From: Lepisosteus oculatus
Taxonomy: Eukaryota > Chordata > Actinopteri > Semionotiformes > Lepisosteidae
Reading direction: 5' to 3'
NCBI RefSeq assembly: GCF_040954835.1
Contig: NC_090716.1
Span: 11,841,275 to 11,905,274 of the forward strand
DNA length: 64,000 bases
Both the position numbers and the translations under genes were made by a program. Positions 2,186-53,729 of the stretch are shown here, piece after piece (the stretch's first letter is position 1; each line of letters begins with the position of its first letter). The notes beneath the pieces were generated by a model. The model saw only the letters and a list, made by a program, of their open reading frames with translations, was not told the origin of the DNA and made no database searches.

Positions 2186-3000
2186 ATTACGTCCGACACT
2201 CCAAAGGGTTGGTAAGAGACTGAATAAACGCGCTTATGGTCCCTTCTCTTGTTATTATCTTTATTATTTCACAAGCGCACGTGTGAACTGCGACAGGAAG
2301 TTGGAATCGCGAGATCGCCGTTTGGCGTTTAAAGGGTTTGACTGTGAACAGAAATACCGGTAAGACGTCAAAGTAGAAATGTACAGGTTTGATGGTGTTT
2401 GATTGAACTAAAAAAAAAAAATCACAAAAGAGTCCCAACTCACTTTTATTCGATAGATAAGTCATGATAAGTTCTCGATTTTTTTAAAACGAAAAAATAA
2501 ATCATATCTACGGAAAACGTCGAGGAAGAACCAGCTTCTTATTTCATGTTTAGGTTGTTGTATTTCTCAATCGGCAGCGTAGGATTGTGATCGTTATATG
2601 TGCAAAGTGATCCCTTTTTCATGACCGACGTAATGATTGCGAAGTTGAAGTCACTTTTGATTCATTTTATCTACGCTTTAGTGGTGGTGCCACAACATAC
2701 AGTAGAGGTGAGGTGAGCGTAGATCGTACATTGCTTCTAGGTTTCCAGTTGGAGATTTATTAAATGTTAAGTTGCTAATTATTAGTACATGAAGCAGTTT
2801 AACACAATTCGCTGAGGTAATGTGCCGCATTTCCACTACAGTTATATTTACTGTTAATTTTTGTTTTTATTTAAAACCATAGTATACCTGTTGTTGAACT
2901 TATTATATTGTAGATTACAGTGCAACCACCGAGCTGTATCGCTGTACGGTAAATACCTGCAGGACTAAACTAATCTAGGTATCTCTTCAGGCAGCCAAAC

Positions 3001-6000
3001 ATGGAAGAACAGACTAACTTTGTGCAACTTGTGAGTCAGAATAAATTGACTGCCAACCCAGACGTGGACTGTTCTCAAACAAACCAATGTCAGAAAAATC
3101 AGGAAATCGTTTTCAAAGAAGGGACGTACTCCATTGCAAAGCAGGCGTCCTCAGATATCTATGTTGACAGCACATCGTCCAAGCAGTCTGCATCACTGTC
3201 ATCTTGTGGAGCGGGTGCCAGCGTTTGTGCCAGGCTGGGCAGTGGCCGTGAGACGGAGGCAGTGGGTGTCAGTTATGGGTTTCACAGTGCACGTCAACCT
3301 GACTGCCAGCCTGCATCCTCGCTGCTGCGTCTTCCTCCTTACTCTCAGACCACGTCTTCGCAGTGCCATCCCACAGTGGTGTCTCGACTGGGCACCGGCA
3401 CTAACCCCCGCTCCAGGGGAACATGGTCTGCAGATGAGGCCAGTCAGTTTGGAGCGATGTCGGTAAGTATTACTGAAAGGAACCCAACACTGGACCTTGA
3501 GTGTCCCCCAGCTTGCAGCTTTCCTGGGTCCGTTTTTAAATGTATTTAAAACTAGGCCATCAGGAATGGACGTTGGATGAGCAAATGTATTTGAAAGTTT
3601 TGAAAATTCAGTTTAAAATAATCCCAGTAATACAATGCCTCTAATAGATGTTCTTAAAGAGAATTTGCTGAAAATTATTTTACTTGTGGAAATGTAAGAG
3701 CAGTGCCAGAAGCAAAGGGTAAACGATATGTTCAGGTGTGCTTTGCCGAATGTGTCTTGCGTTTTCACTGTTCCACTGTGTTGTTTAAATCAAGGCAGAA
3801 GTGATGGAGGCTGTTGCCAGTATTACATCTGACAGCACAGAGGAGGCTTCTTATGATGTGCAGCTATATGAGAAGTTTTTTCCTCAACAAGAAATGACAG
3901 CAGTACAAAGATCCCTAGGTATTGTGGACAATCAACCGGTAGGTCCTATGTTTTAAACAGACTTTAAAGAAATGAAAACAAACAAATATCTCAATATAAT
4001 GAGTTTATGTGGTGGGATCCTCTTCTAATATATTGCGTTCTGCAGGATAATTTTAAATGGTTTATACAGTAAATGCGGTCAGATAAATTGTAACCATAAT
4101 GAAACAATCCATTCAGCTCTTGAGAACATGTTACAACATTGTTCTTTACACTTACAGAGTAACCTACTGTATGTTGAGTGGATTGGAGAAAATATTGCAA
4201 TACGGGGACTAATAAAAACATTCCCTTAACTTTGTAACATAAAGGGTTGTTGCATTTTCATTATTGTTAATATTGTTGTTTAAAACTGCTATACGCATAC
4301 TGTATTGTAAACATACTGCTTGCTTAACATTACACTGTAATGTAAACAAGTTCTCAGAGAGATTATTTCTGTCATCTGCATTGTGAAGATGCTCACCCAG
4401 CCAGTGCCATCTATTCTCAAACCATTTGACCACCCAAGAGAGCAGGGGCACAGTCTGTGCCAGGTGAGTTTCTGACACCTTTAAAGTCAACATGCTTCTC
4501 TTACAGAAGTTTATGAAGAGCTGCTTTAGCCAGATCTGGCATAATCTGATTTCTCAGCTGTGCTTTTTTACAATGAATATCACTGAAGTGCTCATATATT
4601 CAACTTTAGTCTGTGTTGTTTTAAAAGCCATTAAGAATGTCAAAAAAAAAATATAATTAATAACTGAAAGTGTTGCTAATCGTAAAAATCCTGGAGTGGA
4701 GTTGAGTTGTATACAAAATATGGGATTCATTTAGACCCAATAAGGTTCACATCCTTAATTGTTAAATAAGAAAAAATAAAATAAGCACAATATTTAGATA
4801 TTGCTTAATAATATAGCGTGGCTTTGAATATAAACAGTACTAAGGTAACATACAGGAAGGTCATTTCATTAACTGGTTTTGATCATTAGCAGCAATAGTT
4901 GCACTTCAGTGGTAATGTCTTCCGTGAATGAGTGTCAAAATTGATTGTAGGTGTGGCTTTTATTTTTTGGATCAGAAAGGTCTTTGAAATTGTAGGAGAC
5001 AGTGTAGTGGCTAATGATGTAGAAGTTAATTCTTAAGACCTACAGCTGTGACGTTGCTAGATTTTTAGGCTGGTCACAAAAGATCGCAAGCATTAGATAA
5101 ACAAGGCTTTACAAAGTATATGAATGGAACAGAATAAATATAAAATCTGCACTTTCATGACATTTATTTATTTATTAAGAATAGAGTAACTTATAATACA
5201 GGATGTCATAGCCATTGAATCGCTAAGTTATTTCTTAAAATGGTAGTGCTGTAGTTTTTGTGTAACCCAAAGGGAGGACCGCAGCTGGTGGTTGTAAACA
5301 GCTGTAACCAGGGGCAGATGAACTCCTTCCATGGTGTGGAGCACTCTCACACCATACCCTACCCAGAACCTCAGGCGCACACTCCCTTCCTGACCGACAC
5401 AGCTGGGAAAGGTCATCACCTCTCAACACCCTTTTGTTGTTCCCCAAACTGATACCACTTTCAAAACCCTAATAGGCAAATTATGAATTACGAATGAAAC
5501 ATGATTATATTTATTACCTTCATCTACTTTATCTTTAGCTATATTTTATATGTATTCTGTGTACCTGCATGTGCAGAAATATATGCAGCTTATGTTGACA
5601 CAAATATATAATGTATAAAAGTACAAATTATTTAAATGCATCATACAAATATTTTACGATTGTGTTAGGAGCTCACCTTTAGTTTTCTAATGTACAGCCC
5701 CTAAAGATTCAGGCAACAGCAAGTGCCCACTTCTTCTCTGTGATAGAAAATAAAATCATCCTTTAGCTTTACTTTTGTTCTTTTTTGCTCATCCAGCAGT
5801 TTCAGCACCTTTGGGAAGGGTGGCTACCAATGCTGTACAGACGCCATGCCTGAACATACCACAGGTAGGCCCAAAAGCCAACACGCACATTTATCTGAAG
5901 ACCTGTGTGAAACTGTGTATATAAAACAAATGTATGGATCTGAAGATTTTGTAATGAATTATTGAAGTAATTGACCTCCATAGCAATAGGAGGATCTGGC

Positions 6001-9000
6001 TTCAAATTACAGGAGAGCTCTGTTGGCAGCAGGCTTGTTTCTCTTTATGTTTCAGAAGCATTCCAGTGATGTTCCTCTTGTGAGGATGGGTCCTCCCTTC
6101 ACTCAGCCACTCTTGTTTGGGGCTGGGCATCCTGTCCCCAGACCACCGCAAGAATTCCTGCATCCCAGCTGCATGGTGCCTCCACCTGTAAACAGTGGCT
6201 TTGGATACAATTTTCTGCCAACCTCCTACTTCCCACAGGTACTGCAAATAAGGTCCACGCAACGGCTCTTGCTTGGGTGCAGTGTGAAGTACTGTAAATA
6301 AACAGATGCATCTTGTACAGTATACAGTATGTGGTATTAAATTTTATCTGTCATTTTTAGCAACTTGATTGTGTAATGAATTGGGAAATTTGATTTTCAC
6401 TGTATCCTAATCATTTTCAGATGTATTTTATATGGTCTGTTCCCCTACAGAAAAAGGTTCAAACGTTGCATCAAATGATTCCAAGTATTTTAACTCCAGA
6501 TAAAACTGTGATACAGTATATGGACATAGTTTGAATGTCACCCTCTATAAATAAATTCATATATTTGTATTTCAAAGGAATTATACCTGAATTGAAAACA
6601 CAGCTACTGTAGAATTATATCACTGTCTTCACAGCACATCAGTTATGGTGAATCTTTTAAAAGATCATCTGTATGTAGAGCTTGAGTTGACATTAAAAAA
6701 ATATGCCAACACTGGAATAGTTTCTAGACAGCATTGACTTCTCACTCTTCACATGCAGTATGGCTCCTACTACTGACACGACTGAGTAATGAAGTACAGG
6801 ATTTTGATGAAGACAGTCCTTGAAAACACAATCTATGATGGCAGTACACAAAGCCAGAAAAGGTGCAGTGTGTGAGAGAGATCTTTTGGACAGATCTTTG
6901 AACAGACTTTAATTAGCAGAGCAGAGACCATTCAAACATTATGTTTATGTTTATGAGTTATGCTGTTAGGCTTAACTAACTTTGTATTGTTTGGATTATT
7001 TTACTTTATTGTTATTTTTTTTATACTTGTTGTACATTCTAAAATAAGTTTCAGATCAGGTTGCCAGTGGTTCAGCAAAAGTCTGAGCTAATCCATGGAA
7101 ATTGATTCTATGATTTCATTACCATGCCACACCTGACTGAGGTGCATTTTCAGAAGGGTCTTTCATCTCCCAGCCATCAGATGAATTTTGTACAGAATTG
7201 TGAATTAGTTGGACACATTTCCCAAGCACTTGTTTGGTAGAGACATTATTAATTGTTACTTTTCATCAAAAGGCCTGTCCTTTTTTCTCGAACACTGTTG
7301 GCTTCCTGGCGGACACTTGCACACAAGGCCAGTCTGAAAGATCTCTTATTGGGTAAGAATTAGGCTGAATTATTCCAATATTACCAATAACAACAACAAT
7401 GATAGAATTTTAAATAATATTAATGCTTTTTTTCTGTTTAATCAGGTTTGCAGGGGCTTCCTGGGATTCTAAATCCAAGAAACCCTGTAACTGTACTAAG
7501 TCCCAGTGTCTTAAAATGTAAGCAGCTATTTAAGATTTATAATAAATTATTAAGTCAAAACATATTAAAGAATAATTGCCAGAAAGGACATATTGTACAT
7601 TTTCATCCACATATGGACATTGTAGAATCATAACCCTACCACCGATGGCCAAACGTCTCTTTGGGTCTGAAAAAAAATAAGGTCATATTTAATATACCAA
7701 AATTAATCATAAATAATAAATCTCCAGCTTTCCAGATTGCTGTGCTGGACCGAAAAGGGACTTTGTCTCATTTCAAACCCATAGTAATAAATAGAAGGAA
7801 GTAAAAATGTCAGAGAACCCAGTAGAGTGCAAGTATACTAAGATGAAGACAACATACAGTGCATTACACACCCCCTCTAGTCGCACAAGCGTCCTAGTAA
7901 TTGGAGGATGTTACCCTACTATCTCACTAAGATGCTTTCTTCTACAATGCTTGCAACTTCTAATGAAGGAGAAGAATGATGTTAGTAAATCTAGATATTA
8001 CAGTTAATAATACATATTGGTTCTGTCTTCCACAGCTTCTTTGTATATGATACTTCTAAACCCTTGAATGCTACTGTATATGTATTATCTACAATAGAAA
8101 ACATCCTATTTCCTTGTTTGTTGCAAGAATACATAGATACATTTTATATAAATGACAGAATTACATTAAAGAATATTCATCATCATTAGTAACTAAATGT
8201 TTTGGTGTCGATTTATTACAGGTACTGTGACTGCTTTGCTAATGGAGAAATTTGTAGTAACTGCAACTGCATTAACTGCTACAACAATGTAGAACATGAG
8301 TCAGAAAGATACAAGGCCATTAAGGTATTTTGTGTGCAGCAAGGAAATGCAGTTTTAACAGCAATGTGCATCTAATTAAAGAAAATAAGGACAAACTAGG
8401 AATAAAGAAATGGCATATAACAGGCAGAATATTTCATTTTTATACCTAAATTGCTGATGTTTCAGTCTTGCCCTGTGATGATGTGGTGTCCCATCCAGGG
8501 TGTACCCTGCCTTACACCCATTTCTTGCTCGGTTAGTTCCACCTGCCCTGTAACCCTGAATTGGAAGAAGCAATTAGAAAATGGATGGATGGATGTTTGA
8601 ATCTGAATAGAATTTCTTTGTGCTATGCTGTTCTCCGATTCTTCCATGGCATAAAGTCATAAATATTTAATACAGAGATCTCCAACCCTTGTCCTGGGAG
8701 TTCCAATCCAACAGGTCTCAATTAAATCACAATTTTCCAAAGATATGGAATAATTCCATATCTTTATTCCAATATACAGACAAATTATATTGTGATCAAT
8801 TGTGATTAAACAGCTAATTTGTTAAATTAAGTAATTTAGAGGTCATTTTGGACTAATATCCTCTTCAGTTTTCAGTAACCAGAGATTCCTTATTTGAACA
8901 GACCACTTGGTTCATTCATCAAGCTTACAAGTGTTGCCTATCTTTAAAAACAGGTTGTCTATAAATTGTATTGGGGCTCTGCATGATCTCCTTGCTCATT

Positions 9001-10861
9001 ATTGTTTTCTCAAGACTTGTCTGGACAGAAATCCTGAAGCGTTTAGGCCAAAGATTGGAAATGGAAAACATGGGGAGATCAAAGGCCGACACAACAAAGG
9101 CTGTAACTGCAAGCGCTCTGGGTGCCTTAAGAACTACTGTGAGTGCTATGAGGTGAGAGAGAGATGAAGAATTCAGCTGAGGGTTATTTCTTAATTCGTC
9201 TGAAAATTACACATGCTTACTAGATCAGAAAAAGGCCATCTTATGTTAAGTTCTGCTCCAGAGGTATACAGCCAGGTTCACTGCAAAGCCAGTGGTACAT
9301 TTATAACCTCTTTTTTTGTACATCGTTATTCTGGGTCCTCTTGTGTAGGTTTTTCTTTTGCACGCTGTTTTGTCGAAGTGCTCTGGTTTTCACTTCTGGG
9401 AGAGGGGTGGCAATGGAGTAGTTTTTGTTTTTTTCGGAGGGATTTCTCACTCTTGAGATTTCCTCTACAGAAGATACATATAATGTCACATGTCTTTTGT
9501 AGCCTCGTGACAGAAAAACACAGTGCACCTGAATTCAGGAACTGCACATCTCTGATGGAACAGTTAGCATCTTTCAACACTGTTGACACTGTTAACACTG
9601 TTAATGCAGTAAACCTAACAAACCACGGCCAACTGAAGCTCATCCAGCACCTCTGCTTGGGGATTTACAGTTCCAATCGGCTAAGAATTGCCTGGGCATC
9701 TTCTACTAGAAGATGTAACCTGTCATCTGTGCCAGCATCTTCTTGAATTTTCTTGTATTTTTACAGCATGTACTGAATTGACAAAGTTCCTGAACAGAGG
9801 TTAACCAACATGCATTAATACATCAGCTATTTTCTTGGTACTGTATATGCACACATGCTGTGCCTGTTAACTAGCCTTTCTCTTTATGTGTAAAAAAATA
9901 TCATTGTCTAATTACTTTTTTGAAAATGACTTCACTGTACATGTCTTTGTTGCAAATCCTTTAGGCCAAGATCATGTGCTCAACTACCTGTAAGTGTGTT
10001 GGATGCAAAAACTATAAAGATTGTCCTGAACAAAAGATGATGGGGTCAACAGACTTTGGGGAGAAGATAAATACAAGACCCTACAAAATATCGACAGACA
10101 TAATAAAGAGGTAGTGTCACCATTCAATAGAATCTTTAAAGGAATTTAAGTCTATAATTTAGTTGTATACATTTATATGGTAATACACTTACTAATCAGA
10201 ATATTAAAAAGACATACAACATTAAATGTTGGGTCTCCATGAAAAGGAAACACAGTCTGAACATACTGTGTCATGTACAGCACAAGGTTGATCACCTTCA
10301 TTTGACATTGTGATATGAGGGTAATGGGTTGATTCCAGTAATTTCCAGTGGGGCTGAGATATGGAGAACTCATATAGGGAAGGTGCTGAAAGTCTTTCTT
10401 GTTCTCCTCAAGACAGACACATGGTTAACCGAGGGTTCTAAATAACTGCTTTCCAATTCTCTGCTTTTTCAAAAATAATGTTACTGTACATGTCTTTGTT
10501 GTAAATCATTTAAGATCAAGATACATTCAAGATAATGAATGTACTGTAACAATAAGATTGAATAAATCATCAAAAGAAATGCTGTTTTTGTAAAACCAGG
10601 AATTGCTTTTTTTGGAAAGTGTAAAAATAATACCAAATGTCTTTTTTGGTTACTGCTTATATCTTTGTTAGGTGTCCACTTTCATGTGTCACACTTGATG
10701 TTGTCCAAGCAACTTGCCGATGTCTCCTTGTTCGAGCTGAGGAAGCAGAAAAGGCCGTTTATTCTTTGTATCAAGCTGAGAAAATGATTTTAGAAGAGTT
10801 TGGTCAGTGTTTAACGCAAATCATTCAGTCAATGCTAAAATCTGGTAACTTCAATCCCTAG
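3001..10861 (+). CDS. TESMIN: Tesmin, CXC-domain DNA-binding protein (12 coding exons, 595 aa)
   Basis: Tesmin (MTL5) is a testis-expressed relative of LIN54/TSO1 that binds DNA through two cysteine-rich CXC repeats. Coding exons: 3001-3462, 3795-3938, 4389-4463, 5285-5411, 5797-5864, 6056-6238, 7273-7352, 7446-7517, 8222-8324, 9015-9152, 9965-10110, 10672-10861. All junctions are GT-AG and phases agree, giving 595 aa. CXC repeat 1 (about residues 393-431) starts [12 protein letters not shown] and runs into [11 protein letters not shown]; the family linker [10 protein letters not shown] follows; CXC repeat 2 (about 465-510) contains [17 protein letters not shown] and CKCVGCKNY. The C-terminal segment carries [10 protein letters not shown], as in human tesmin. 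The N-terminal 350 residues are low in recognisable domains. The start has a good context (AAACATGG) and sits just after an acceptor ending at 2990. Human tesmin is about 508 aa; the extra length is N-terminal. The weakest exons are 5285-5411 and 7273-7352, supported mainly by phase. Confidence 0.93.
8467..8595 (+). repeat. GGAT-tailed SINE, 3' part, in a TESMIN intron
   Basis: Contains 'cccatccagggtgtaccctg', 'gaccctgaattgga'-like sequence and the tail 'agaaaatggatggatggatg'. The tail is one of the best preserved in the window. Confidence 0.75.
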
Positions 10862-13860
10862 GGCTACCATAAAATATCCTTACAACCAAGAACTTTGTTC
10901 TTTGTTGTTTGCTCTTAGTTCATCTGATGCAGGAGTATGTATTTTAGATTTATATTATACAACTATTGATGTATTTTATTTTATTGAAAGAACATTCCTT
11001 GTTCTTTATTTTAAATATTTTGTTCACAATTGAATTTTTTGCACAAATCTTTTTACCACTTTTAGCACGTCTTTATTAAAAACAAATCAGCACACTTTAT
11101 CTTACATTACCTTAGGCATATTTTATAATTTACTTTATAGTTCAGTGACCATCTTAGCATAAGATAATGTTGTGATTGTTAAAAACACTGTGGTGTTTTG
11201 TAATATGTAATATGTGTGAAACTGCTGTCTAATAAAACATGTGGCGATGGAAAAGTATGACTGTACTGTCAGCTAACTCACATCCAGAGGAAAACTGTAC
11301 ACAGAACCTTTCTCATCATTAGGTATGACAAATAGTTGTAAATATTTGTAAATGTTGTGCTAATTGTTATTGCTTTGGCAATTCTGTAATTCATTGCTCA
11401 TGTCAAAAAAAGCCCTTTGAATATGAATTTGATCAATGGTTGGTGCAGTAGGAAACTGCATTCTCATTCGAATGCAACTGCAAAGCACTGATAATGCTCA
11501 TGCATATCTGTTATAAACCAATAAGGTGCTTGATATTCACATAAAAGGTAAGGAAATTGCTTTGTTTTTCTCCCACGTGAGCACATTAGGTTATGTTTAA
11601 GGATTCTGAAAGACTTGAGGTTAAGATTAACTCTACCATGTCCGTTTCAAACGGGGCTATTCATTTCACGAGCCTCTTATACTGTAGGTGGCCCGCTTCT
11701 CAAGATCAAGGTAAGAATTCAACTTGTCCAAATAGTTCCAGCTACAGTAGGGTGGAAGGAAACCGGAACTTTCTGAAGCCCCAGGACCAGAGTTGTGCAC
11801 CTCTGATACAAAGCGCGCAACTGCTTTTAAACAAAAAGGTAGAACTGTTAGGTAATCTATTTTCTAGCTCTATTTATTCCAGACGAACCGTTTTTTTAAC
11901 TATAAATAAAAGTGATTTGTTATGACCACGCCAGGCTCTGTTTTAAAAGGTTCCTGCATCCCACCGCCTCGACAGCGTCGGCTTGATGGTCAGTTTCAGT
12001 GCGAATACGACGCTGCGCCTTTTAAAGTTTTCGTGCTTAAATCGAGATAACTACTTGGGTCATTTTGAAAACTTGAAAACCAAACATCTTTAGCCCCCCT
12101 TTACGTATAGCGAAAAACCAGTTACGGGTACGGATACTGAGAGAATCCTTATGTCTGTACGATTGATCTCCTTCCATTCCGCTTGTATGCCGAGTTGTAT
12201 GCAGTCTTGTACAGTATGTGGGGTCTACTGTAACTAGTGCCGTCTCTTTGGCCTCAATTCCTAGTGAATAAATTAAGTCTTGACTGTCCTTTCTTATGTT
12301 ATGTTGTTATAACCTTAAAAAGACACGAATGCACATATACCCTGTAAAGTGCCAAGTTTTGTTTTCCACTTGTCAAGTCTGAAATAAGTTTAGTTTAGTT
12401 TATCTGTACGTTAAATGGCAATTTTATCTTGTACAACTATTTAATCGTTCATTGAACCTCGATTCTACAATTGTAAGTATAATTTAATGAAAATTAACCA
12501 TAACACAGACTAGAAGAGAAGAAAAGGGCTTGAATTTTTTGATAGGGCGTAGTCATAGAAATATTCTGTCCGGCTTTATAGCTACACGACTACAGTGGAG
12601 TGGATGGAAAATGCTGAAATATTTCTTCTTCTATTGCTTTTATGTTGTGTATAACCGTGGACTTCCATAATTATTTTCAAACTTGTTAGTTCGGAGGTGA
12701 ATCAGACTATTGAAGCATTAATGTCAAAAGTCAGTAGCGAAATAATATTTGTCCAGTTCATTATACAACTCATTTGGGATGCGTGTTAGTAATGTAGCAT
12801 TATCTGCTTGTAATTAGATTCACCTTCATTTCAGTAGTAATGTATAAAGGACCAGGAGAAAGCAGATAACGCGAATATGAGTAGTCTTTTCTTTGCATAC
12901 TGAAGCAGTTATTACTATAATTGCTGCTTACTGCACCAACACACATTCTAAATTAATATAATTACTGAGCCTCCTAAAGCTTTTAGTTCCATCCCGGTAG
13001 AAAATCACATGTAAAGAAAGTAGCATTGTGTTTCACTGTCTTCAACAATAAACTGTGTGTTAGGCAATTATTTTATTGACAATCTAAAGGATTAATGGAA
13101 GTATAGTAATCCAGATGTAAAATATTATCATAATTGAGTGATACTGTGACCATGTCGATTATGAGACTCTCAACGGACCTAGAGATAACTGCCTTCTACA
13201 CCGAATTAAGATTATTAATATTAAAATTAAATGTAAAAAAATTTTCAGGTTCAGCGATGATCCTTTTTTTACTTCTGCTGTGTGGCAAACATTTCGTTCA
13301 CACACTAGGCAGTTTTCGTTCAGCGCAAGTATCTGAAATCCATATAGTTGAAGCCTAAATCCAACTCGAGGGTTTCCCCCGCGGAAACACTACTGTAAAT
13401 CTTTATTTGTGGCTTTATGCACTTCATCCAGTCCTACTGTATAGAAGATAAGCCTTCGAAGTCATTACTCTAACCACGCATCACTAACTGGAAATTATCT
13501 CATCAGAATAACTAACTGCTTTTGAGATGTGACGGTTTTCATTGCGTAATTCACATTTCAGCCAATGTTGTGGAAAACCTTGATTAAACAATTAAATAAA
13601 CGAAAACGAGGAGCAGAAGACTAAGTCCAAAGCACATCACTGGACTGTTTATCTTAATTACAGATGTTGTGTTGTCCGCGCTTGACGTAAGCTTTTATTG
13701 TCAAGTTGATATAAATGCCTTGTGCTCCACGGTAGATCGACCTGCTAGATGCGTCTCTCAGGGAGGGAGAATCGAACCTGAGATCCCGGCGTTTCATTTT
13801 CGTGGAGGAAAAAAAAAAGCTGTTGAGCACCACAGTCCAGGCGCAGTAGGGACTTGTACA
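10862..13860. other. TESMIN 3' end and SPX2 upstream region
   Basis: The TESMIN 3' UTR probably ends after the AATAAA at 11231-11236. Beyond it I find no exon. A block at about 11690-11830 ('ccaggaccagagttgtgcac') looks like a dispersed repeat. The remainder is AT-rich and should include the SPX2 promoter and non-coding exon 1. Confidence 0.5.
11231..11236 (+). terminator. Candidate TESMIN polyadenylation signal
   Basis: AATAAA, 370 bases after the TESMIN stop codon. It is the first canonical hexamer I noticed downstream. Confidence 0.5.
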
Positions 13861-13890: not shown

Positions 13891-15610
13891 ATGGTAAGAA
13901 AAGTTATTTTTTCCACTGTATAAACCAGAAAAATGTTCATTAAGAACTGGTTATTTGGAACAAACGCGCCAAACTATTCTTTCCGTCTTAGAAACCCAGG
14001 GCAACATTTCTGTGGACTTGTACTTTTGCGATTATCTTTATTGTGATGGAATCTCCTTCAGCTTCAAAGACACCGGTATGCATATGACTTCTTCTTCTTT
14101 TTCTTTCCTGCTTCACGACTGTAACTTAACAATTAAACTGTTTATGATCTCAACAGAATAAGATGAATTCTAGAAACTGGGGCCCACAGTCCATGATGTA
14201 CCTTAAAGGAAAATGTAAGTTTTTTTTATTTTATTGTCAAAACCGGAAAAAAATCACGCATCTGGCTTGCTAAGGATATGTTTGTTTTATCAAAGTATTT
14301 TCAGCTGAGAAGAGTAACATAGAACAATGTAGGCACTGCAAATGTACAATAGTTTTAATATAATATTCTTTTCTTTCTCAATAATGCAAAAGTAAAATAT
14401 GTACTGAATATATGCTCATCGGCGTCTAACATCCAGAAGAATTTCTGTCTCCTCAGATTTATAACCAGCTCTTTTTTTGGGAAAAGTATGGAATTGATCC
14501 AGTCAAGGTTTCTGACTTATTTATCCTTTTTCCGTAGCTTTAAACTGTTGATAATTTCAAGAGACAAAAATCTGCTTGATTCTGGTCCCTACGGACTGAA
14601 GATGGAAACCACAGTTCATGCAGATGCAACACATTGCGTACTGTATGATAGAGGGTTTTCTTAAGGTGTACTCCTCGTACGGTGCAGTCAAATTAGCAGC
14701 TACTGTACTTTATAATAGCACACTCTTCACGCAATAACTGAATGTCTTACAGATGGGAGAAGATACGTTTCCGACTATGATGAAGATCAATTTGAGAAAT
14801 TTGGGTTGAATAACTGGAACGCGCTTCTAAAAGGTATGTTCTGACGCGTTTGTTTCGGCAGAGTTTGGGTAACTGCCGAACTGGCTTTTGTAACTGACGT
14901 ACATTATACTGTAAATTTCACACTGAAAAGTAAAAAGAAGTTGATGTGTTTACGCCTTATTCCATTGTACTTTTTTTTAAACCTTGTCCCAGTTATGATA
15001 ACTAGATGTATTTGGTTTGTGTTAAAACCACGTGTTTCAATTAAAATATATGCCTTTGATTTAGTTTTCAAAAGATTTTTTTCATACTCCTGGAACAGGT
15101 ATCCTTTCTAATTGAGAGGAACTGATAGATTCTGTCTCCAGCTACTAGCATTCATTCCTATGTCCTGCAGTCATTATTAGTGTACTGTATATGAAACAGT
15201 TTATAAAAGCCAACTACAATAAAAATAATTTCAGAATTATCATTCGGAAATTATCATTCAAGTAGCTTATTAAAAGATTTTGCTTAAAAGAAAAAAATAT
15301 TTTCCATGAAATGACAAGGCTTTTGTTTTATATGAACAGATTAGGTATCGTTAACTTGTACAACCAAGATAATAAATGAGTGGTTTGTATTTTTTGCCAT
15401 TTCTTTGTTGCTTGTATGATTTTTTTCTTGTTTGAATTTAAATTGCCTCTTTTATAATGCTTCTGAAAATGCTTGAATGGGTAGAGGCAATGCAGGGAAG
15501 AGTTTTGGTGCTCTTAGTGTTAGTGTGTGCTCAATGACATTTCTGTTCATACAGATGCAATCAGAAATGGCAAAACCTTGCAGCCACAAAACAAAAAATT
15601 CAGCGTATGA
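13891..15610 (+). CDS. SPX2: Spexin-2 neuropeptide precursor (five coding exons, 93 aa)
   Basis: Spexins are amidated peptides of the galanin/kisspeptin group acting through galanin receptors 2 and 3. Coding exons: 13891-13893 (only ATG, followed by gtaag), 13992-14075, 14157-14214, 14753-14833, 15555-15610. All junctions are GT-AG and phases agree. Residues 1-29 begin MKPRATF and have a hydrophobic core (TCTFAIIFIVM), a signal peptide. The mature peptide, residues 36-49, is NWGPQSMMYLKGKY, followed by G-R-R at 50-52, the standard amidation and dibasic cleavage signal. The tail reads YVSDYDEDQFEKFGLNNW and stops 17 residues after the last junction. Known SPX2 peptides, as I recall them, read NWGPQSMLYLKGRY; spexin-1 reads NWTPQAMLYLKGAQ. 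The G at position 3 marks type 2. The N-side cleavage site here is a single Arg (NSR), not dibasic. SPX2 is absent from mammals. Candidate poly(A) signals are ATTAAA at 16170 and AATAAA at 16402. Confidence 0.92.
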
Positions 15611-16521
15611 AACTAGAAAAAATGTATTGTTTGCACAAATGCCATGCCTTTATAAAAGCACTGTTTGTAAAAGATGACAAAGTAGCTTTCTTCAGCAGTA
15701 CAAATTAAGGTGTCAGAACAAGATGACCTGCTGCTACACCTGCTGAGCCCAATGAAATGACCTGTGCCCTTGGCTTTTACTGCAGGATACCAAAAATTAA
15801 GGCCAGTGGAGTATAAAAACATCAGAAGAATGCTGACAGCTGAAAAAGTAGAGATTCGGTACCTCGAGTAGCATAACAACAATAATGACTGATCTTCTGT
15901 CTTGTTGCTCGAAGTCAAGGACATCACCAGTGGACCTGCTGCTGCTCAGGATCCTCACTCTGTGGATAAGCCTTGTCTGTCAGTCAGTCTTGATCAGTTA
16001 TGTGTTCATGTAAATCCATTTGTGGAATACAAACGGAACATATGTACAGTGTAATTTGCAACACTTTCAATTTGCTTTTTGTGTAATACATCATTTCTTC
16101 TATTGACACTGAATGTTGCACTTAAACTTTGTGTTCTTGTCTGTTTAAGAGAACATTAACTGTAATGCTATTAAATAACATCCAAAACTGTGTCAAAAGC
16201 AAGAATATATAATGATTTATATACCCTGTTATGAAACAACATTTAAGCACATTTGGCTTGTTGGCACATTTAGCTTATTGAATACCTCATTCCTAGGCAT
16301 GATGTCTCTCAGGTCCTGTTCAGATATATTCCTGCTTTATAAGTTATGCTATTGTCCTATGGAGACTGTCCTGGCAAGAAAATACTTGATCAATATAAAC
16401 TAATAAAGAATCCAATGTGATTAAATATATGTGTTTATAGCTTTTCTGCTGTGAACAAATATGATGCGGAATAAAAACAACTGTGCCAAACAAAGAAAGA
16501 GGACCTGGTTGCACAAGATAC

Positions 16522-18534: not shown

Positions 18535-20010
18535 ATGTTGGGGTTAAATCATACCTTCAGACTCCTCGGAAGGACCCTGCGCCAGCAGATCACCCCTAAA
18601 GCCAGCATTACTTCTAAGCCTCCGAAGGAGGTTATAACTCCGGGGGTAAGTATCCTGCAGCACATTTTCAAATGGAGAGCAGCAACACTTGGCTTATAAA
18701 AGTGAAAATGCGGGTTTCTTAAATAACGTTACTGAATATTTGACTGGACAGGTTGTTAGGAGACCGTACAGGTGCAAAATCACCTACGATTCGTCATATG
18801 AACGAAATTAGTGTAGGAAGGTATTTTACCTAGACAATAACTCCGTTATACTTTAATTACATTTTAAACTATACATAAAGAATGCTATATACAGTAAGTG
18901 TAGCCCTACATAAATTCGCGTAATTTGTCTTTCCATTAGAGAATAAAGCTTCATCCTTTAATTGGTAATTCTAGGTAATACCAAGTGATAAAGTTGTTTT
19001 AACTTTATTGGCCTGTTGTATGGGATCTCTTAATATTTCTCACACTGTTAAGAAGGAAAGTTACTGCACACTTCGTTTCATGCTCTCTTTTGCTGCCTTT
19101 CTGGAAAGTCATTTTATTTCAGAAATGAGCAGGAGACGTTGAACTCGGCCGCTGGACGCCATTGTTCACGAAACTCCGTTCACGTACAGTAGATCATAAG
19201 TAAAAGGCCATCTGACAGTCACCGCAAACAAAGTTCTCTTTCACTTGATTGCGCTTCAGCACACTGGATCCCTCCCTGCGTGCTTCCAAAAACATCCGCA
19301 AGTTTGTAATTGAATGGTTGCCTGTTTTTTGCATTTGCTTTCGGTGCTTCCTGATGCCAAGCAACCTAACTCACGGAGAGTGTGTTCTTGCAGTATTTGT
19401 CTGCTAGACCTCTGCCAATTAATGATGATTCAAACATTACCATAATCATCTTCAAACATAATTATATGGGATATTTCAAATTTTAATATATATATACTTA
19501 TGCTTTCTGTATATTGTCTTAAGCATTAAAAGTTATTGAGTTATTAAGTTTTACACTGGGTAATATGAATATAGGATGATAAAGTATAATAAGTATCATT
19601 CCATCTTTTTTAACCCTTGGTGGCCATTCTAACAATATCTTAATTTAGAGAATCTTCATTTTGATGATACCTTACACATTATATTTAATCTCTTCTGTGT
19701 TAGATTTGCTGTAATAATTTCATGCTCACTTTCATATATTTTGAAAAACTGCTGTGCGTATTCCAGGATATCTGTATTTGATTTGAGGATTTCTAACCAA
19801 TCATCTGATTAAAAACATTGCTACTATTATTCGTTTCGTCCCTATGGTACTATTGCTGTAGTATGCTGTTGGTGGACCCAAAGCATGAAGATTTCACGTA
19901 TTCATCAATTGCAGGAACAAGCTGTTGCGCTGGTTGCTATGTTCATCGCCATCTTGGTGCCCTCCGGTTGGATTCTGTCTCACCTGGACGACTATAAGCG
20001 CCGGAAGTGA
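18535..20010 (+). CDS. COX8B: Cytochrome c oxidase subunit 8, heart/muscle type (two exons, 68 aa)
   Basis: COX8 is a small single-span subunit of complex IV in the inner mitochondrial membrane. Exons: 18535-18645 and 19915-20010, both in phase 0. Residues 1-25 or so (MLGLNHTFRLLGRTLRQQ) are an Arg-rich presequence without acidic residues. The mature part has EQAVALVAMFIAILVPSGW, one membrane segment, and then ILSHLDDYKRRK; the PxGWxLxHLxxY pattern is diagnostic for COX8. The middle TPKASITSKPPK and EQAV match mouse COX8B (VPKAHVSAKPAK, EQAVG) better than COX8A. Length equals the family norm (about 69-70 aa). In mouse, Cox8b also lies beside Psmd13, which supports the B assignment. A possible poly(A) signal, ATTAAA, is at 20132. 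Confidence 0.93.
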
Positions 20011-27900: not shown

Positions 27901-30900
27901 TTCATTCCATTAGCGTCATACCCAAGGGAAACGTTATTCTGGGTGGTTGCAATATATATATTTAAGTTGTTTGCTGAAAGCATGCCTGGGGGTTATAGTA
28001 CAAAGACCCTCACCTGCTGTCCCCACGCTGATTTGAAACCCTGAAACTTCTCAACATTCCCACTGTTGAAAGCGTACAGCGTGTCTATCAACCACTGCTT
28101 GTCTGTGCTCCTCAGGGACTCCAGTACTGGATGCATCAGCTGGACAAGACAACACGGTTACCAGCAATTTCAGAGTTTCTCCAGCAAAATAATTTCAGTG
28201 AAGATATAAATGTTCTTAAAAAGGCCTGATTTTTAAGATTAGACAACTAATTCATTCCAACAACTAATTTAAATAACAGTTTTTGAAGGCTATTTATTAA
28301 CTGGCCTTGCGAGCTGCCTGTCTTTCCCAAGCCTAAGTTATATGACCATTAGCTACAAATTCTATGCGTTTCAGGCAGGTTCTAACTTACAAGCTCTCCA
28401 AAATTGTACACCCCTTCTCCCAAGAGCCCAGCCAGCCCCAGGGTGAAGGCTCTCTCCTGCTGCTCGGCCTCTGGAAGACCAAAGCAAACACGCAGTTATT
28501 TTACTGGAACAGTAAGCAAGATGCTGAGGGATGACATTCTAATTGGAAACAACACAGGAACATGGACAATATGCTATATTAGAAGTTTCATAGTTTGTAC
28601 TCAAGACCACAATGCATTACACAGCAGAATCATGAAGATAAAGACTTGGACACAAATTTACCTCCAATAAGAGTATACAGTATGTTATGACACCCTCTTT
28701 TCCTGTCAACTTCACATTTTCTGAAGGATCCACAATTAAATATTTGAACATTTTAAGATGATCTATAAAACATCCTATTTTAATCGGAGAATATAACCAA
28801 AATTAAGACCTTTTGTGATGACAGTTCTTTTGTTATGTCCCAAATTAACCATTCATCCAATTTCTAATTGCTTTATCCAACTCAGGGTCCTGGAGACTAT
28901 TGTGGAAAGCATGTAATTAATGCTCCAAATTACTGTTAAATGTTCTGGTCTACTGTAGTGTTTATTTTTATAAGTGAAGCTTGTTCAAAATATTACTTCA
29001 CTGCTTTAACAAAAGAGGGTCTAGATTCTACAGCACTCCACCTCTCAAACAAATGTATTATCTTACAGTTCCCTCATTATATTACCTGCAGGTACTTCTG
29101 ATGACACACACAATATTACATAGCATGACTGCACCTATATGACAGACTTGCTACTGCCATAAGCTCAGTTTTACATTTTCTGTCAAGAGATGCTAAAAAA
29201 TGTGCATGGTGCTGTACGTTACCTGGCAAGTCCTTGGCATCTACACAGCCCAGGTAGCGCAGAGCATCTTTGTAGTAGGATGCATGATTCCCTATGATGC
29301 GGTAGTATTTACTGGAGAGATCATAAAACCGCCCATGGACTGATGTCACCCCAGGCAAGTTATTCAGCATTTCTTCAACCTCTTCGATTAACTTCTGCAC
29401 ACAAAGCATATATGGATGGTTACACACACAAACACACTGACAGAGTTCAATAACTTAGAAAATCACTTGTCAGAATGAATGAGTAATCAATTCATTTAAA
29501 GGTATAACCAACAGGACTCATAAATAGTATTTAATTCACTAAACTAAAGAATAATCTCATACAATGTGCCAGTAATTGTACTCCTACAATTATGATTATT
29601 TGCAAAAAATTGACACAGTCAAATAAGAACTGAAATATCATAAATACAGAGAGAAAAACACTGAAATGCTCAGGGAAAGGATATTGTACCTCAGGTTATT
29701 TTTCAGTAATGGGAGTGTTGTGTTTTTTTTAATGCATTCAGAATTACTAACTGTATGTAACCATTTTTACCTTTGTCGCTGGAAGGTCATTTATTTCCAG
29801 CTTCAGACTTCCGATGGCTGTCTTACAGAGAATTACAGCTTCGTCACTGCTTTTGACCTGAAACAAATATAATGGAGCAAACATTACGAGGTTCTGTTTA
29901 TGAGGTCCTGGTGTCTATGAATTTATGTTGAAAATCCTACTATGTAAAAGCCCCTGTCTTAGCCCAATTTTGTTGGTATCCATACATAAACCTAGCCTCA
30001 GAACTCTGGAAGAACAGGCCACTTTAGTACTTAGCCTATCACAGTGTAGCACTTAGAAAACAGCAGTGCTATTGGCCTCTGAATAAGGAGGACATCACAG
30101 AAATGGCACACAGGTCTTTAGTCATGCTTTTATTTGGAATGTAACAGATGCAAATTTGTAAATCACAGCTGGTTCAGAGCTTTGATCTTACCTTCTCCTT
30201 TGTCTTCTCTAGGAAACTAATGGCAACATTGGGATCTTAATTGAAAAAAAAAAAAAAGAGTTTAGTGGCAGAATCCTTTCATTTAATTTGCAGCTACGAC
30301 ACCAGAACATCTTCTAGCTTTCAAGAGCACAACTGGGATTCAAAAAAAAAAAAAGCCCCCCAAAATATGAACAGAAATTATGCTGTCTTTTCAGTAGTTC
30401 AAGGAGAAGAGGTGCTCGTACAGGATGAGTCTTAGATTCCAGATGTCGCTGGCTCAAAGCAGCTAGGGCGTTAGCTAACTCTAAATCAGGATTCCCCACA
30501 TACTGATCCACAACTGTACAAGCGCTACTAGGGGTTCTTCAGCTTTCCATGCAACACTGAGTCCTGGGACTGGCTGGGCTTTATGAGCTCGTATGACAGC
30601 TGGAGATATACTACCTCTTCTGTATGGCAATGTGCAGCTTGCAGATTGTCAAATGATGAATAACTGCAACAGGTAAACAATTTCTCATCCTTACCATGCA
30701 GCGTAGTACATGGGGTTCATAGGTACCAGTTGGAAATAAATAAAATTGGTCAGGTATAAAAAGGAAAATAGGGAAGTATAAACAGAACATTAAAACATTA
30801 AAGTCCTGGAATGTTAGTGGAATCCTAATGATCTTGCTTATGTTCTTACCCGTCATTTGTCTTGCCACATGGAGAATAATTTCTACAAGGGATAATGGAT

Positions 30901-35482: not shown

Positions 35483-38400
35483 ATATTGGACTTTGTCCAC
35501 CTACGGTACAAAACATTTCTTTCTTTACGTTACGCGAGTACCCGGAGTCCTCTGCCTCGGTCCGAGCCCCCTGTCTTGGTTCTCAGGAGATGTTATTCCA
35601 CCCACTGCCTCACAAGAGGCCTGTCTGGAGGAAGGGGAGGCAGCCAGGAGCAGCAGACACTGCAGGACGTTGCGAGGTTCATCCGAGACCAGGAGTACAA
35701 GAGGATCGTGGTCATGGCTGGGGCTGGCATAAGCACGCCGAGCGGAATCCCAGATTTCAGGTAGTCTAACTGGAATCTGCACACTGTAGCCAACCCGCAT
35801 CTGACTGGGTATCTATTGGTCTGATGCCACAGGAGTGGCTTGGTCAAGGTTAAAGAAGGGTCAGACTGTTGCAATATTGTACATGTATAATTATGTAGTG
35901 ACTGTTGAGGTTCTTGACCCACAGACACCAAGAAACGCAAACTGAATAAAAAAGATGCTTTCTTTTATTTTTGTATCATGAAAAGATCCATTAAGCTGCA
36001 GTTTTTTTAACAATGAATAAATGTCTAATTGGATTGTGATTTATGTCACTGTTAATGTTGAGATGAAGTGTAGAATTGAGCACTTCTTGAGCAGTAGGCA
36101 GCTTTGGTATTTATACTGCTCTGTGTGCATATCTTGTGTTATTCAGTGTGTTATTACTTTCGTCACAGATCACCTGGAAGTGGCCTGTATGATAACCTTC
36201 AGCAGTATGATCTGCCTTACGCTGAAGCCATATTTGAGATCAACTATTTTCGCCACAACCCAAAGCCATTCTTTGCCCTGGCCAAAGAGCTCTATCCAGG
36301 CAATTATCTTCCCAATCTGACTCACTTCTTCATCAGGCTCCTGCATGACAAGGGGCTCCTTCACAGAATGTACACCCAGAACATAGATGGATTAGAGAGA
36401 AGTGAGTATTTGCTGATCTCTTGGTTTTCAGCCTGATGAGGGCTGATCACTACAAATGGAGTGTTTCAGACAGCTGTGACAAAGAGGGCAGAGGCTAGTG
36501 TCAACCAGTAGTGTTTAAAGAAAGAGAAATAATATGGAAATGCTACAATGCAACACTTTTGTGGGCATCTTATAATCTGTCCTGTAAAACAAGAATGCCC
36601 ATTTCAGTTTTTCCATCGTCGGTCTGTTGACAGATTGTGATGGGGTCTTGCTCTTGTTCTTTTTCTCCAGTGGCAGGTATTCCTTCCAGCAAACTAGTGG
36701 AAGCACACGGGACCTTTGCAACTGCCACCTGCACTGTGTGCCGGACGTCGTACCCGGGGGAGGCTCTCAGAGTGGGTGATGTGCCGCGGTGCAGTCCCTC
36801 TGGCATGTGGCTGGCCTGGCAGTGGCAGATTAGATTGAAGGGCTAGTCTTGTCCAGGTCGAAAAGGACTGAAGAGAGGCTCTGTCACAGAGTCGGGGTAA
36901 CAGTACGCTCAAGGCTGAAAGCATGGGTGACTTTCTCTTAAACCCTGTTTATTGGCAAGATGCATATGACAAAAGTTGAGTCGTGATCCTTCCAGCACAG
37001 GCATCTTGCTGGTATAGAAATGTTGGGGGAAGATAGAGGTGAGGTGATGATGCACAGTACCGTGTTTACTGCTTGTGGCTTTACAAGTGATTTCACATGG
37101 TTCCGCGAATCTATGAACAGTTCAGCCATTTAGCTTTTGTTCACACTATACTGTAAATAAAATCTCTCCCAAAAGAAATGTTGTTGCTAGCAGTAGTAAC
37201 CTACACGCCACAAACCTGTCATTGTGGTGTGTGCTTTGCTTCGAAAATCAATCATTTTGACATCCTCTTTAGTTTTGTTATTTGTCTTTCTGCTTTTTTT
37301 CTTGTCTTCTCTCTGTCAGGCGGAAATATTGGAGAGTAAAATCCCCAAATGCCCCAGCTGTAAGGGAGTTCTGAAGCCTGACATTGTGTTCTTCGGGGAG
37401 GAGCTCCCACAGCAGTTCTTTCTGTACCTTACTGACTTCCCTATGGCCGATCTGCTCATCGTCATGGGAACCTCACTGGAGGTGAGGGGCAGACACAGTC
37501 GAGGCTCGGGCCTAGATTAGGTACGGGAACTATTTCATATCTAGGTGAGCAAAAGCAATTTAACCATGTAATTTATAAACCGCATCTATTCAAACGCCGT
37601 TTATGTATTGGAGGAATATGTTTTTCAGGGGATAATGTAAAATCCACTCCTTTGTATAAAAAGTAAACTACCTGTTAAGATTGGAAGAGTATTTTCTAAG
37701 GTAAAAATCTTTTAATATTTCTAAATAAAATTAATGTTTATAATTACATCTCTTATATTGGGCTTCAAGTATTTCTGCCATGCACTCTGCTGATAGACTA
37801 ACTGGGCAATGTTCTGGTTCAATATCAGAAGTGTATCCGTGTTGAGAAAATTAAGATGAATATTTAGAAACCGTCTGAAAAGGCAGAGACTGACATCTTT
37901 TCTGTTTTATAGTAAAAGTCAATGGATTCAATCTGCATGAAATTAACAAGACACCCTTGTCAGAAAGAGATAACACAACTGAGAGGAAGTTTAGAATAAT
38001 TACAGGCTGAATGACTAGAGTTTGACCTTTTCTGAATGCTGTTCTCACACTTCCAGTAGTGTGTGGAGAGACCAGATACACTGTATGGGTTGCTGAGAAC
38101 TGGCTGGTAAAACAGTTTCTGTTCCATCAAACAGCAACACTTGTACAGAATTATTGATGTGATACTGAGCTATCTCTCCATGTTGGAGACTTGACCAGTC
38201 AGATAAAAACTTAAAATCCCATCCTTTATTTAAGCCATTATAAGGGTTTCCTCTTTCATCTTAAATTAGTGCCAGCATTCAATTTAATTTAGTCATTAAT
38301 GTGACTTGCCAAGGATACTAAAATGAATACTGTATACTGTTAAGAAAAATGAAGGACGGGGGGAAATATTAGCATATTTAATTTAATAGCATATTAATAG

Positions 38401-50000: not shown

Positions 50001-53000
50001 AAATCCTAGACCGTGAAATTCGGTCTTCATAAACAAGCATCGTGTTCGATCATAGCTGAGCCAAGGTGGGTTTCTGTACATCTGAACTGGATTTCTTTAA
50101 GCCTAGATGTGCTTCAGATTGTTGTCTAATCAGAAATGTAGTCTAGAGTCGTTTTCTAGCCCTTAAGAGGCAGGACTCTCTTGTCTGTCTCTTTTGATGT
50201 GGGATAAATTAGAGCAAATTAAAGCAAAATTCACTGGACATCTGGAAAAAAGTCAATGGCATTCTTCGCACCAAGTCAAAATTTTGCAAACTTTCACTAA
50301 TGTGGAATATTGTTCTATTAATTACTAATTCACAGCCTTTTACTTCTCTGCCAAAATCCTCAAAAATGTTTTATGCTGTAAGTGATATTTTTGATGATAG
50401 GGCACTGTGCCTATTTTGCCTTTTCGTCTTTCTGTTTTAATTTTGTTGTGACCCCCCTCCTTATCTTCGTTTTGATCTATGCTTGTGGTACTATATGGTA
50501 ACATTATCTAATGATTTAATAAGAACTTTACCATCTGCCTCTTCTTTAGTTACACGGCCTGGATGAGCAATTGGACTGGAAGTCAGGAAAAGAGAGATGT
50601 ACAGTGTAGGGGCACAATTCTACAATTTCATTAGACTTAACTCTCACTCTCTGACAAACACACACTATTATATGACCCACAACGTCTCATGTAGAATTAC
50701 ATGATGAAATTATCCTTAGTATGGCATCATATGCAGCAATAAAAACATTCATTGATTTTAATTCCCCGAATAAAGTCACTTGGCACAGGGTATCCTCACG
50801 AGGTAAATGTGCTTCTTTAATAAAGCTCCCGCTGTGTGTTGAGAATTAAATGATGCCACAAAATAAGCTGAATTCCCAAAGAAACTGACAAGAAACTCTG
50901 CTGAGCTACAATATGTAAGGGTCACAACGTTCTTCAGGAGAAAGGGTGCTGCTTTGCCACATAACCCTGCTCACTCATCCATTTTCGAACTGCTTCACGG
51001 GTCAGTCCAGGGTCGCAGGGCAGCCGGAGCCTATCCCAGCAAGCAACGGGCGCAAGGCAGGGTGCACCCTGGGTGGGACACCAGACACTAGACTGTCATG
51101 ATACCCCAATACAATCTTTCCTTATCTAAGAGACAAGGAAATGTAAATTTTCTGCTAATTACTTTTATAACCGTCACAAAAATTCAATTCCCTACACTAA
51201 CATCTTATTCTAATATGCAACTTGGTCAGCTATTAAATTACATAAAATGAAAACACAGAAATGTACTAAGACTAGTTATGGGCGTAGTTTAAGTACTCCA
51301 GTGCAGAAAAATGCACTAGATTTTTTAGGACAAAAAGATGTTTCCTGCACAGAACCAGTCAAATTCTTTTCAAACTGTATTTCAAATTGTATTTGTAAAT
51401 GGAGAAGATGATTATTTACCATTTGTTTCCCTTTTTTCTTTTTCTACATAGGCCTTCCATGCAGCAGATTTACAGATTTTTTAAATCAGTGAATTAAAAA
51501 TCAAACCAACAAAGAAATAATTTACTTAAGTGAAGAATGATTTGCAAGCACAAGATAGTTATTAGTCGAATGTGCCGTACCTGCCTTTCTGTGAAAGTCA
51601 CTCATTTCAGAACAGCAGGTCTTTAAGCCAACAGATGGCTGCTAGGGTTTAGTCTCTTTAGCAGACAAGCGCCTTACTAGCCTCTGGTAAAGAAGCTGGG
51701 GCTGTGCTGTTAGCTGCAACTCCCCTGGTGCTGCTGCTGATGGTGTTTATGGAAAAGTGCTTCCAGGCAGCCTAGCCATTTCAAAGCAAACAGAAACTCT
51801 CTCTTAACTGTCAGGACCGCCCATCGTCCTGTCTGTCATTTCATTCATTCATGTTTTTTTTTCCCCAAACTGGTTAAACTTCCCAGAATGCAAGAAATTA
51901 AAACAGCCAGTAGAACAGGTAAATTAGAACATTCTCAAAGGGAATGCCATGGTTATTTTAGAATGCTGTTAGTTCTGTTCATGGCTGTTCTGTTTAATCT
52001 TTGCTGATTGAAACACATTTAAAACAGTTTAAAACAGCCTTCTGTTAACTGAATCATCCAATGCAAGTATTCATCATATAGCCTATTTTGAATTGAAAAA
52101 AGCAGCAACAGGTTTGCTTGTAGCTTTGTGAAAGGGAGTCTGTTACCTGTGGAATTCCTCTGTCCTGTCCTCACCATCTGCTTTGCTCATCAAGCAGTGC
52201 CTCAGGATAGCTCCCAGACGTCTGTACAGCGCCGCTTCTTCCTGCAGATCGAGAGATCACGCCCAGGGTGTGAAAGTGAACAAAAGTGTCACGAGACAGC
52301 TTTAGAAATTTGTCTTAAGGATTATGTGCGGTCTTTTACGTGTTCGCTTAACTTTCTACATGATTTCCCCGATAATTCTTTCCTACTTCCTGATCAGATC
52401 TTTCTTTCTTCAAATCAAGGGCGTCTGTCTTCCAACCGATGAGATGGAGAAAGTGTTTCTGAGGAAGTGAAAGCGCTCGGGCGATCGTCTCGGTACTTGT
52501 GCGAAATGGGCAATACGCAACCCCCTCTGTCCGGCCTCACCTCATCCACATCGCGGCGGTTGGCGTCAAAGGTGATGTTGAAGAAGATCTTCAGGATCTC
52601 CATGGCGCGCTCCGTCTCCTGGCGCGGGAGGGGGACACCGGGATCGCTCCCATCGGCCCGCGCCACCTCAAAGGTGTCCAACCAGCGCAGGCCCAGGGTG
52701 CTCTCCAGCGCGTCGGCCAGCAAGCTGACGCCTCTCAGCTCGTGGGCCAGCTGCCCGCGCACGTCCACCCGCAGCGCCGTGAGCAGGAAGGTGAGCCGCA
52801 GGTCGAAGAAGCGCACCTCGTGGGTCCACTGCCGGTCGTGGCAGAGCTTGAGGCGCTCGGTCAGGCCCACGATAAGGCGCAGCTCCGCGCCCACTTCCTG
52901 CGCGGTGGGGCTGTTGAACACGATGTTGCACAAACATTTCAGGGCCTCCACAATCACGTCCAGGTCCGGGATCTCGGGGGTCACGCCCTCGCTGTGCTCT

Positions 53001-53729
53001 ATACCTGCGTGCCGGCTCAGCGTCTGGACGGCCTTCCGCGTGGTGAAGGGCCCCAGGCAGTTCTTGTCGCGCGACAGAATCCGAATGGTCTCCAGGCACG
53101 CCAGCTGGCAGGAGGGCTGCAGGTCCCGTTCCAGGAACCCCAACACCAGCTCCCCCAGCCTCTGGAGGACCCCCCCAAAAAATCCCAACAAAATCCACGT
53201 TAAACCAATAAGCGCGATGAGCTGCACAAAGAGGTCACAGGAACGGGATCTGGACCAGCTATGTAATCCTCAAAGCATTTTCGGAAAAGTAATAAGATTA
53301 GTTGTAAAGGGAGAAAAAACACTGAACACTAACAAAAGACATCATTATGATTCATCATTCTGCAGTAAAAAAAAACAAAAACATCTTATTCAGCAAGGTT
53401 TAGCCAACAGATGCTTGGCCAGAGTAAAATATACTGTCAAATAAGCACAATTCTAAAACACATTGGTCCACATTCTTGCAAAAGACATGGAATTCCTGGG
53501 AGAGGCACTGAGATGTCTATTATTGACACGGTAGTGTGGAGATACTAGCACTGTCCAGTGCAGATGGCAACAGCGAGGGGCTCCAGCGTGGCCCGGCGAG
53601 GAAAGGTCACGGCTTATAGCTCAGGGTGGAGGGGCAGGACCTGAGCCTTGTCTTTTGTCGACTGCGACTGGGATTCCGCGGGGGACACAAAGGACTTGAC
53701 TGTCACTGGGTTTGGCTGTGATGAAAATA

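Follow-up and report, generated by a model that had tools for sequence, protein, structure and literature searches.

SPX2 in other vertebrates

Spexin-2 (SPX2) is a small brain hormone of fish, frogs, lizards, and birds. The comparison made here draws on published work on the spexins (PMC6593056, PMC9376245, PMC10003256, PMC7044129, PMC6430828, PMC12560929). Three of them state that SPX2 is absent from mammals (PMC6593056, PMC9376245, PMC10003256), in agreement with the claim made in the first-pass annotation of this DNA. Zebrafish SPX2 is located in the preoptic area, and both SPX1 and SPX2 are described as active on GALR2a/2b and GALR3 and inactive on GALR1 (PMC6593056). The two peptides vary at positions 1, 3, 6, 7, 13, and 14 (PMC6593056), and the residues given as typical of Spx2 are Gly3, Ser6, Arg13, and Tyr or His14 (PMC7044129). 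Among the matches listed for the literature on spotted gar, bowfin, sturgeon, coelacanth, and elephant shark, spexin was absent.

The window, that is, the whole 64-kb stretch of DNA analyzed here, corresponds to C21:11841275-11905274 in an 813-contig genome of 1.20 Gb. This region very probably carries an apparently functional SPX2 gene that encodes a 93-amino acid prepropeptide. The gene is an ortholog of SPX2, which is already published, and it involves no new mechanism.

The predicted mature peptide, NWGPQSMMYLKGKY, can be compared with those of several species. The last 14 residues of half-smooth tongue sole SPX2, HWGPQSMMYLKGKY, are identical at 13 of 14 positions, including Met8 and Lys13, and the peptide begins with N here and with H in tongue sole (PMC9376245). 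The tongue sole peptide has a C-terminal amide, which is expected here too, and in its synthesized form carries three extra N-terminal residues (PMC9376245). For zebrafish, medaka, and coelacanth the SPX2 peptide is printed as NWGPQSMLYLKGRY, with 12 of 14 residues identical to the one found here, and the zebrafish precursor has 95 amino acids compared to 93 (PMC12560929). Chicken SPX2 is identical at 11 of 14 residues; as here, it has an Arg before the peptide, GRR after it, and GAL on the same chromosome, whereas its precursor has 75 amino acids from four exons instead of 93 from five (PMC10003256). The value of 78.57% that PMC10003256 gives for the zebrafish SPX2 peptide relative to that of chicken disagrees with the sequence in PMC12560929.

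Exon structure and splice sites

The first-pass annotation had proposed a chain of five small exons in which the start codon closes exon 1, no coding exon exceeds 84 bases, and the product is a 93-amino acid precursor with a GRR signal. The coordinates of this chain proved exact, with the frame joined and GT-AG at every border. Coding lengths of 3, 84, 58, 81, and 56 bases add up to 282 bases, or 93 codons and one terminal stop. The introns measure 98, 81, 538, and 721 bases, have GT...AG ends in all four cases, and are in phases 0, 0, 1, and 1, as computed from the exon lengths.

All exons are on the + strand. The coding part of exon 1 is the ATG alone (13891..13893), directly before the donor GTAAGA in phase 0. 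Exon 2 (13992..14075, 84 bases) encodes the predicted signal-peptide region, KPRATFLWTCTFAIIFIVMESPSASKTP, and ends in phase 0. Exon 3 (14157..14214, 58 bases) encodes NKMNSR, NWGPQSMMYLKGK, and the first base of a Tyr codon, ending in phase 1. The remaining Tyr bases are found in exon 4 (14753..14833, 81 bases), followed by GRR, a predicted amidation and cleavage signal, and by YVSDYDEDQFEKFGLNNWNALLK; this exon also ends in phase 1. The 56 coding bases of exon 5 (15555..15610) encode the C-terminal DAIRNGKTLQPQNKKFSV and the stop and are followed by the 3' UTR, in which a candidate AATAAA can be read at 16402-16407. At the other end, a TATAAA (13710..13715, +) approximately 180 bases 5' of the ATG is a weak candidate core promoter, accompanied by an equally weak CRE-like TGACGTAA (13683-13690), both read from the sequence. 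If transcription starts near this TATA box, a ten-codon upstream reading frame (13749-13781, +) would lie in the 5' UTR of exon 1.

Splice sites were scored with a simple vertebrate matrix applied to all GT (165) and AG (153) dinucleotides between 13700 and 16500. Over these 2.8 kb the four donors take ranks 1 to 4 of 165 (exons 4, 1, 3, and 2, respectively). The acceptors of exons 2 and 5 rank 6 and 8 of 153, and those of exon 3 (14157) and exon 4 (14753), two of the four, are average at ranks 34 and 27. The donor ranks support the exon model, though not as an independent or unbiased probability, because the model was presumably built by picking good-looking donors. The match to the Pfam Spexin family is free of this dependence on the donors.

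The two average acceptors would fit a decaying SPX2 pseudogene that has lost transcription or splicing. The frame, however, is open across five exons, all four donors are strong, and the GRR and the mature peptide are intact, so such decay is very unlikely and an SPX2 gene that is presumably still transcribed is preferred.

Assignment to the spexin family

The joined protein matches Pfam Spexin (PF15171) over residues 31-57 with 34.8 bits, above the cut-off of 27, and an E value of 2e-8. Spexin is the one Pfam family that it matches, which bears out the membership proposed for it. The C-terminal 40 residues lie outside the match; for them the evidence is the splice model and the GRR[YF]VS similarity described below. 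The precursor also contains a 14-residue peptide flanked by a basic residue and GRR, an arrangement expected of the Spexin family.

When the 1.2-Gb genome was searched with Spexin in six frames, exon by exon, 4 of 4 candidates were scored and three matches returned: two exons on contig C7, at 35.3 and 27.3 bits, and the SPX2 mature-peptide exon on C21, which alone reaches 22.4 bits (E 0.13) and falls under the cut-off. One SPX1 locus and one SPX2 locus were found in this way. The first-pass statement that the gene escapes an ORF scan is therefore fair. The practical lesson is that the spliced product passes the Spexin cut-off (34.8 bits) while the lone peptide exon fails it (22.4 compared to 27).

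Short exons are easily joined by choice, and the model might be short open segments strung together by chance. A degenerate DNA probe for the beginning of this peptide, allowed up to 3 mismatches, has a single match in the window, with 0 mismatches, in the SPX2 exon. On shuffled windows the same probe gives a mean of 0.46 matches, with at least one match in 35 of 100 shuffles, so the single match proves nothing alone. The E value of the Pfam match, the intron phases shared with SPX1, and the linkage to GAL nevertheless make a chance origin vanishingly improbable; it is contradicted by the Spexin match and the GAL linkage taken together. For the SPX2 gene itself, no meaningful PDB entry came up when the precursor sequence was searched (best E 0.76). 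Within the 64-kb window, neither Rfam, at gathering thresholds, nor a tRNA scan gave a match.

Comparison with SPX1

A distinct SPX1 gene encoding NWTPQAMLYLKGAQ-GRR is present on contig C7 at 50.42 Mb. It reads MK, a signal exon, RRNWTPQAMLYLKGA(Q), GRRFVSEDRKEGDVYDALHL, and a tail, with exon 1 chosen from two pattern candidates and with two possible acceptors for exon 3, nine bases apart and in phase 0 either way. The 115-residue reading matches Spexin with 99.8 bits over residues 29-109. Its tail covers most of the Pfam domain, whereas the SPX2 match is confined to residues 31-57.

The two genes share intron phases 0, 0, 1, and 1, given the chosen candidate for SPX1 exon 1. In each, intron 3 interrupts the codon for the final residue of the mature peptide, and GRR is then followed by [YF]VS. 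In a BLASTP alignment of the two precursors, 15 of 22 residues around the peptide are identical (E 7e-11), and SPX2 exon 4 aligns with SPX1 through GRR[YF]VS[DE]. Within the peptide, 9 of 14 residues are identical and 5 differ.

The shared phases and the nine common peptide residues could also indicate that the gene on C21 is SPX1 itself, or a copy of SPX1 duplicated within the lineage, as with cichlid Spx1b. Against this, SPX1 is a separate gene on C7, and the C21 peptide carries the SPX2-type residues G3, S6, and Y14. GAL adjoins the locus, whereas Spx1b lies between golt1bb and ldhbb (PMC7044129). An SPX1 identity is highly improbable. SPX2 is instead supported by G3/S6/Y14, the distinct SPX1 elsewhere, galanin 27 kb upstream, and a precursor whose 93 amino acids are near the length of zebrafish SPX2, and the spexin-2 identity assigned at first pass stands.

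Position 13 of the SPX2 peptide is Lys. Gly3, Ser6, and Tyr14 agree with the Spx2 pattern as given in PMC7044129, and Lys13 differs from its Arg13; the tongue sole peptide also has Lys here (PMC9376245). Met8 is outside the list of variable positions in PMC6593056, yet is common to tongue sole SPX2. In the SPX1 peptide, position 13 is Ala, the residue described in tetrapods and in elephant shark, whereas piscine species have Thr (PMC7044129). Taken with the single SPX1 and single SPX2 loci, this Ala would argue against a typical teleost.

Genomic context

Zebrafish spx2 is placed between gal and ldhd (PMC7044129). A GAL exon, GWTLNSAGYLLGP, was found at C21:11828108, on the same strand, with the SPX2 ATG following 27,057 bases later, and the second half of the Galanin model matches at C21:11832474. 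Galanin 27 kb upstream is as expected from the published SPX2-gal linkage (PMC7044129), and it is a feature by which SPX2 is told from SPX1. A second galanin-type exon, ARDRRGWTLNSAGYLLGP (C7:1943673-1943711), lies in G+C-rich surroundings on the contig that carries SPX1; the latter half of the Galanin model has no listed match near it. In published accounts, spx1 is near kiss2. This was not reproduced: the kisspeptin family, searched across the genome, has one match (C5:38716018-38716074, 37.9 bits), which is on neither the SPX1 nor the SPX2/GAL contig.

Upstream of SPX2 in the window, two exons match the Tesmin/TSO1 CXC domain (8193-8372 and 9009-9161, both +), a domain that alone does not separate TESMIN from LIN54. 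An open segment of 183 residues (2983-3531, +) has coding-like codon use, has no Pfam match, and is perhaps an exon of a Tesmin-type gene. A COX8 exon (19912-20007, +, 59 bits) lies between SPX2 and PSMD13. Downstream are a PSMD13 exon (28005-28145, -), SIRT3 exons including 37332-37490 (+), and RIC8A (52469-53176, -). In human, TESMIN is beside GAL, with GAL-TESMIN on 11q13 and PSMD13-SIRT3-RIC8A on 11p15.5. TESMIN and PPP6R3 were absent among the matches listed for the literature on the spexin/galanin/kisspeptin neighborhood.

The SPX2 gene leaves knowledge of the spexin family unchanged. It can help in annotation and in following SPX2 prior to the loss reported for mammals, and one large-contig genome gains a clean SPX2 alongside SPX1, GAL, and two GALR2-type loci.

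Predicted processing and receptors

Spliced SPX2 mRNA would be translated into the 93-amino acid prepropeptide. An N-terminal signal peptide is suggested by a hydrophobic stretch spanning residues 8-19 and by allowed cleavage positions following residues 24, 26, or 28; it would be removed after about residue 24-28. NWGPQSMMYLKGKY sits between Arg35 and Gly50-Arg51-Arg52, and with these residues at its borders it is expected to mature into an amidated tetradecapeptide. Cleavage by a prohormone convertase behind Arg35 and behind the Arg51-Arg52 pair, with Gly50 used for C-terminal amidation, would yield NWGPQSMMYLKGKY-NH2. As summarized in PMC6593056, one study found SPX secreted mainly as the full-length protein, and goldfish assays showed amidation to be dispensable; the amidated form is therefore an expectation only. 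The tail YVSDYDEDQFEKFGLNNWNALLKDAIRN, encoded by exons 4/5 and followed by Gly-Lys, might be released as a second amidated peptide with its own function. This is quite unlikely, its basis being one Gly-Lys site only.

By analogy with SPX2 peptides that have been tested, the peptide may be an agonist of GALR2-type receptors. The genome was searched with a human GALR2 sequence of 311 amino acids, with GALR2b and GALR3 taken together. Among 127 scored matches, 123 are at most 49% identical. The remaining four form two GALR2-type loci of two pieces each, one at C19:0.93 Mb (69 and 61% identity) and one at C9:43.08 Mb (76 and 71%), the latter with one TAG in the open frame around its first piece.
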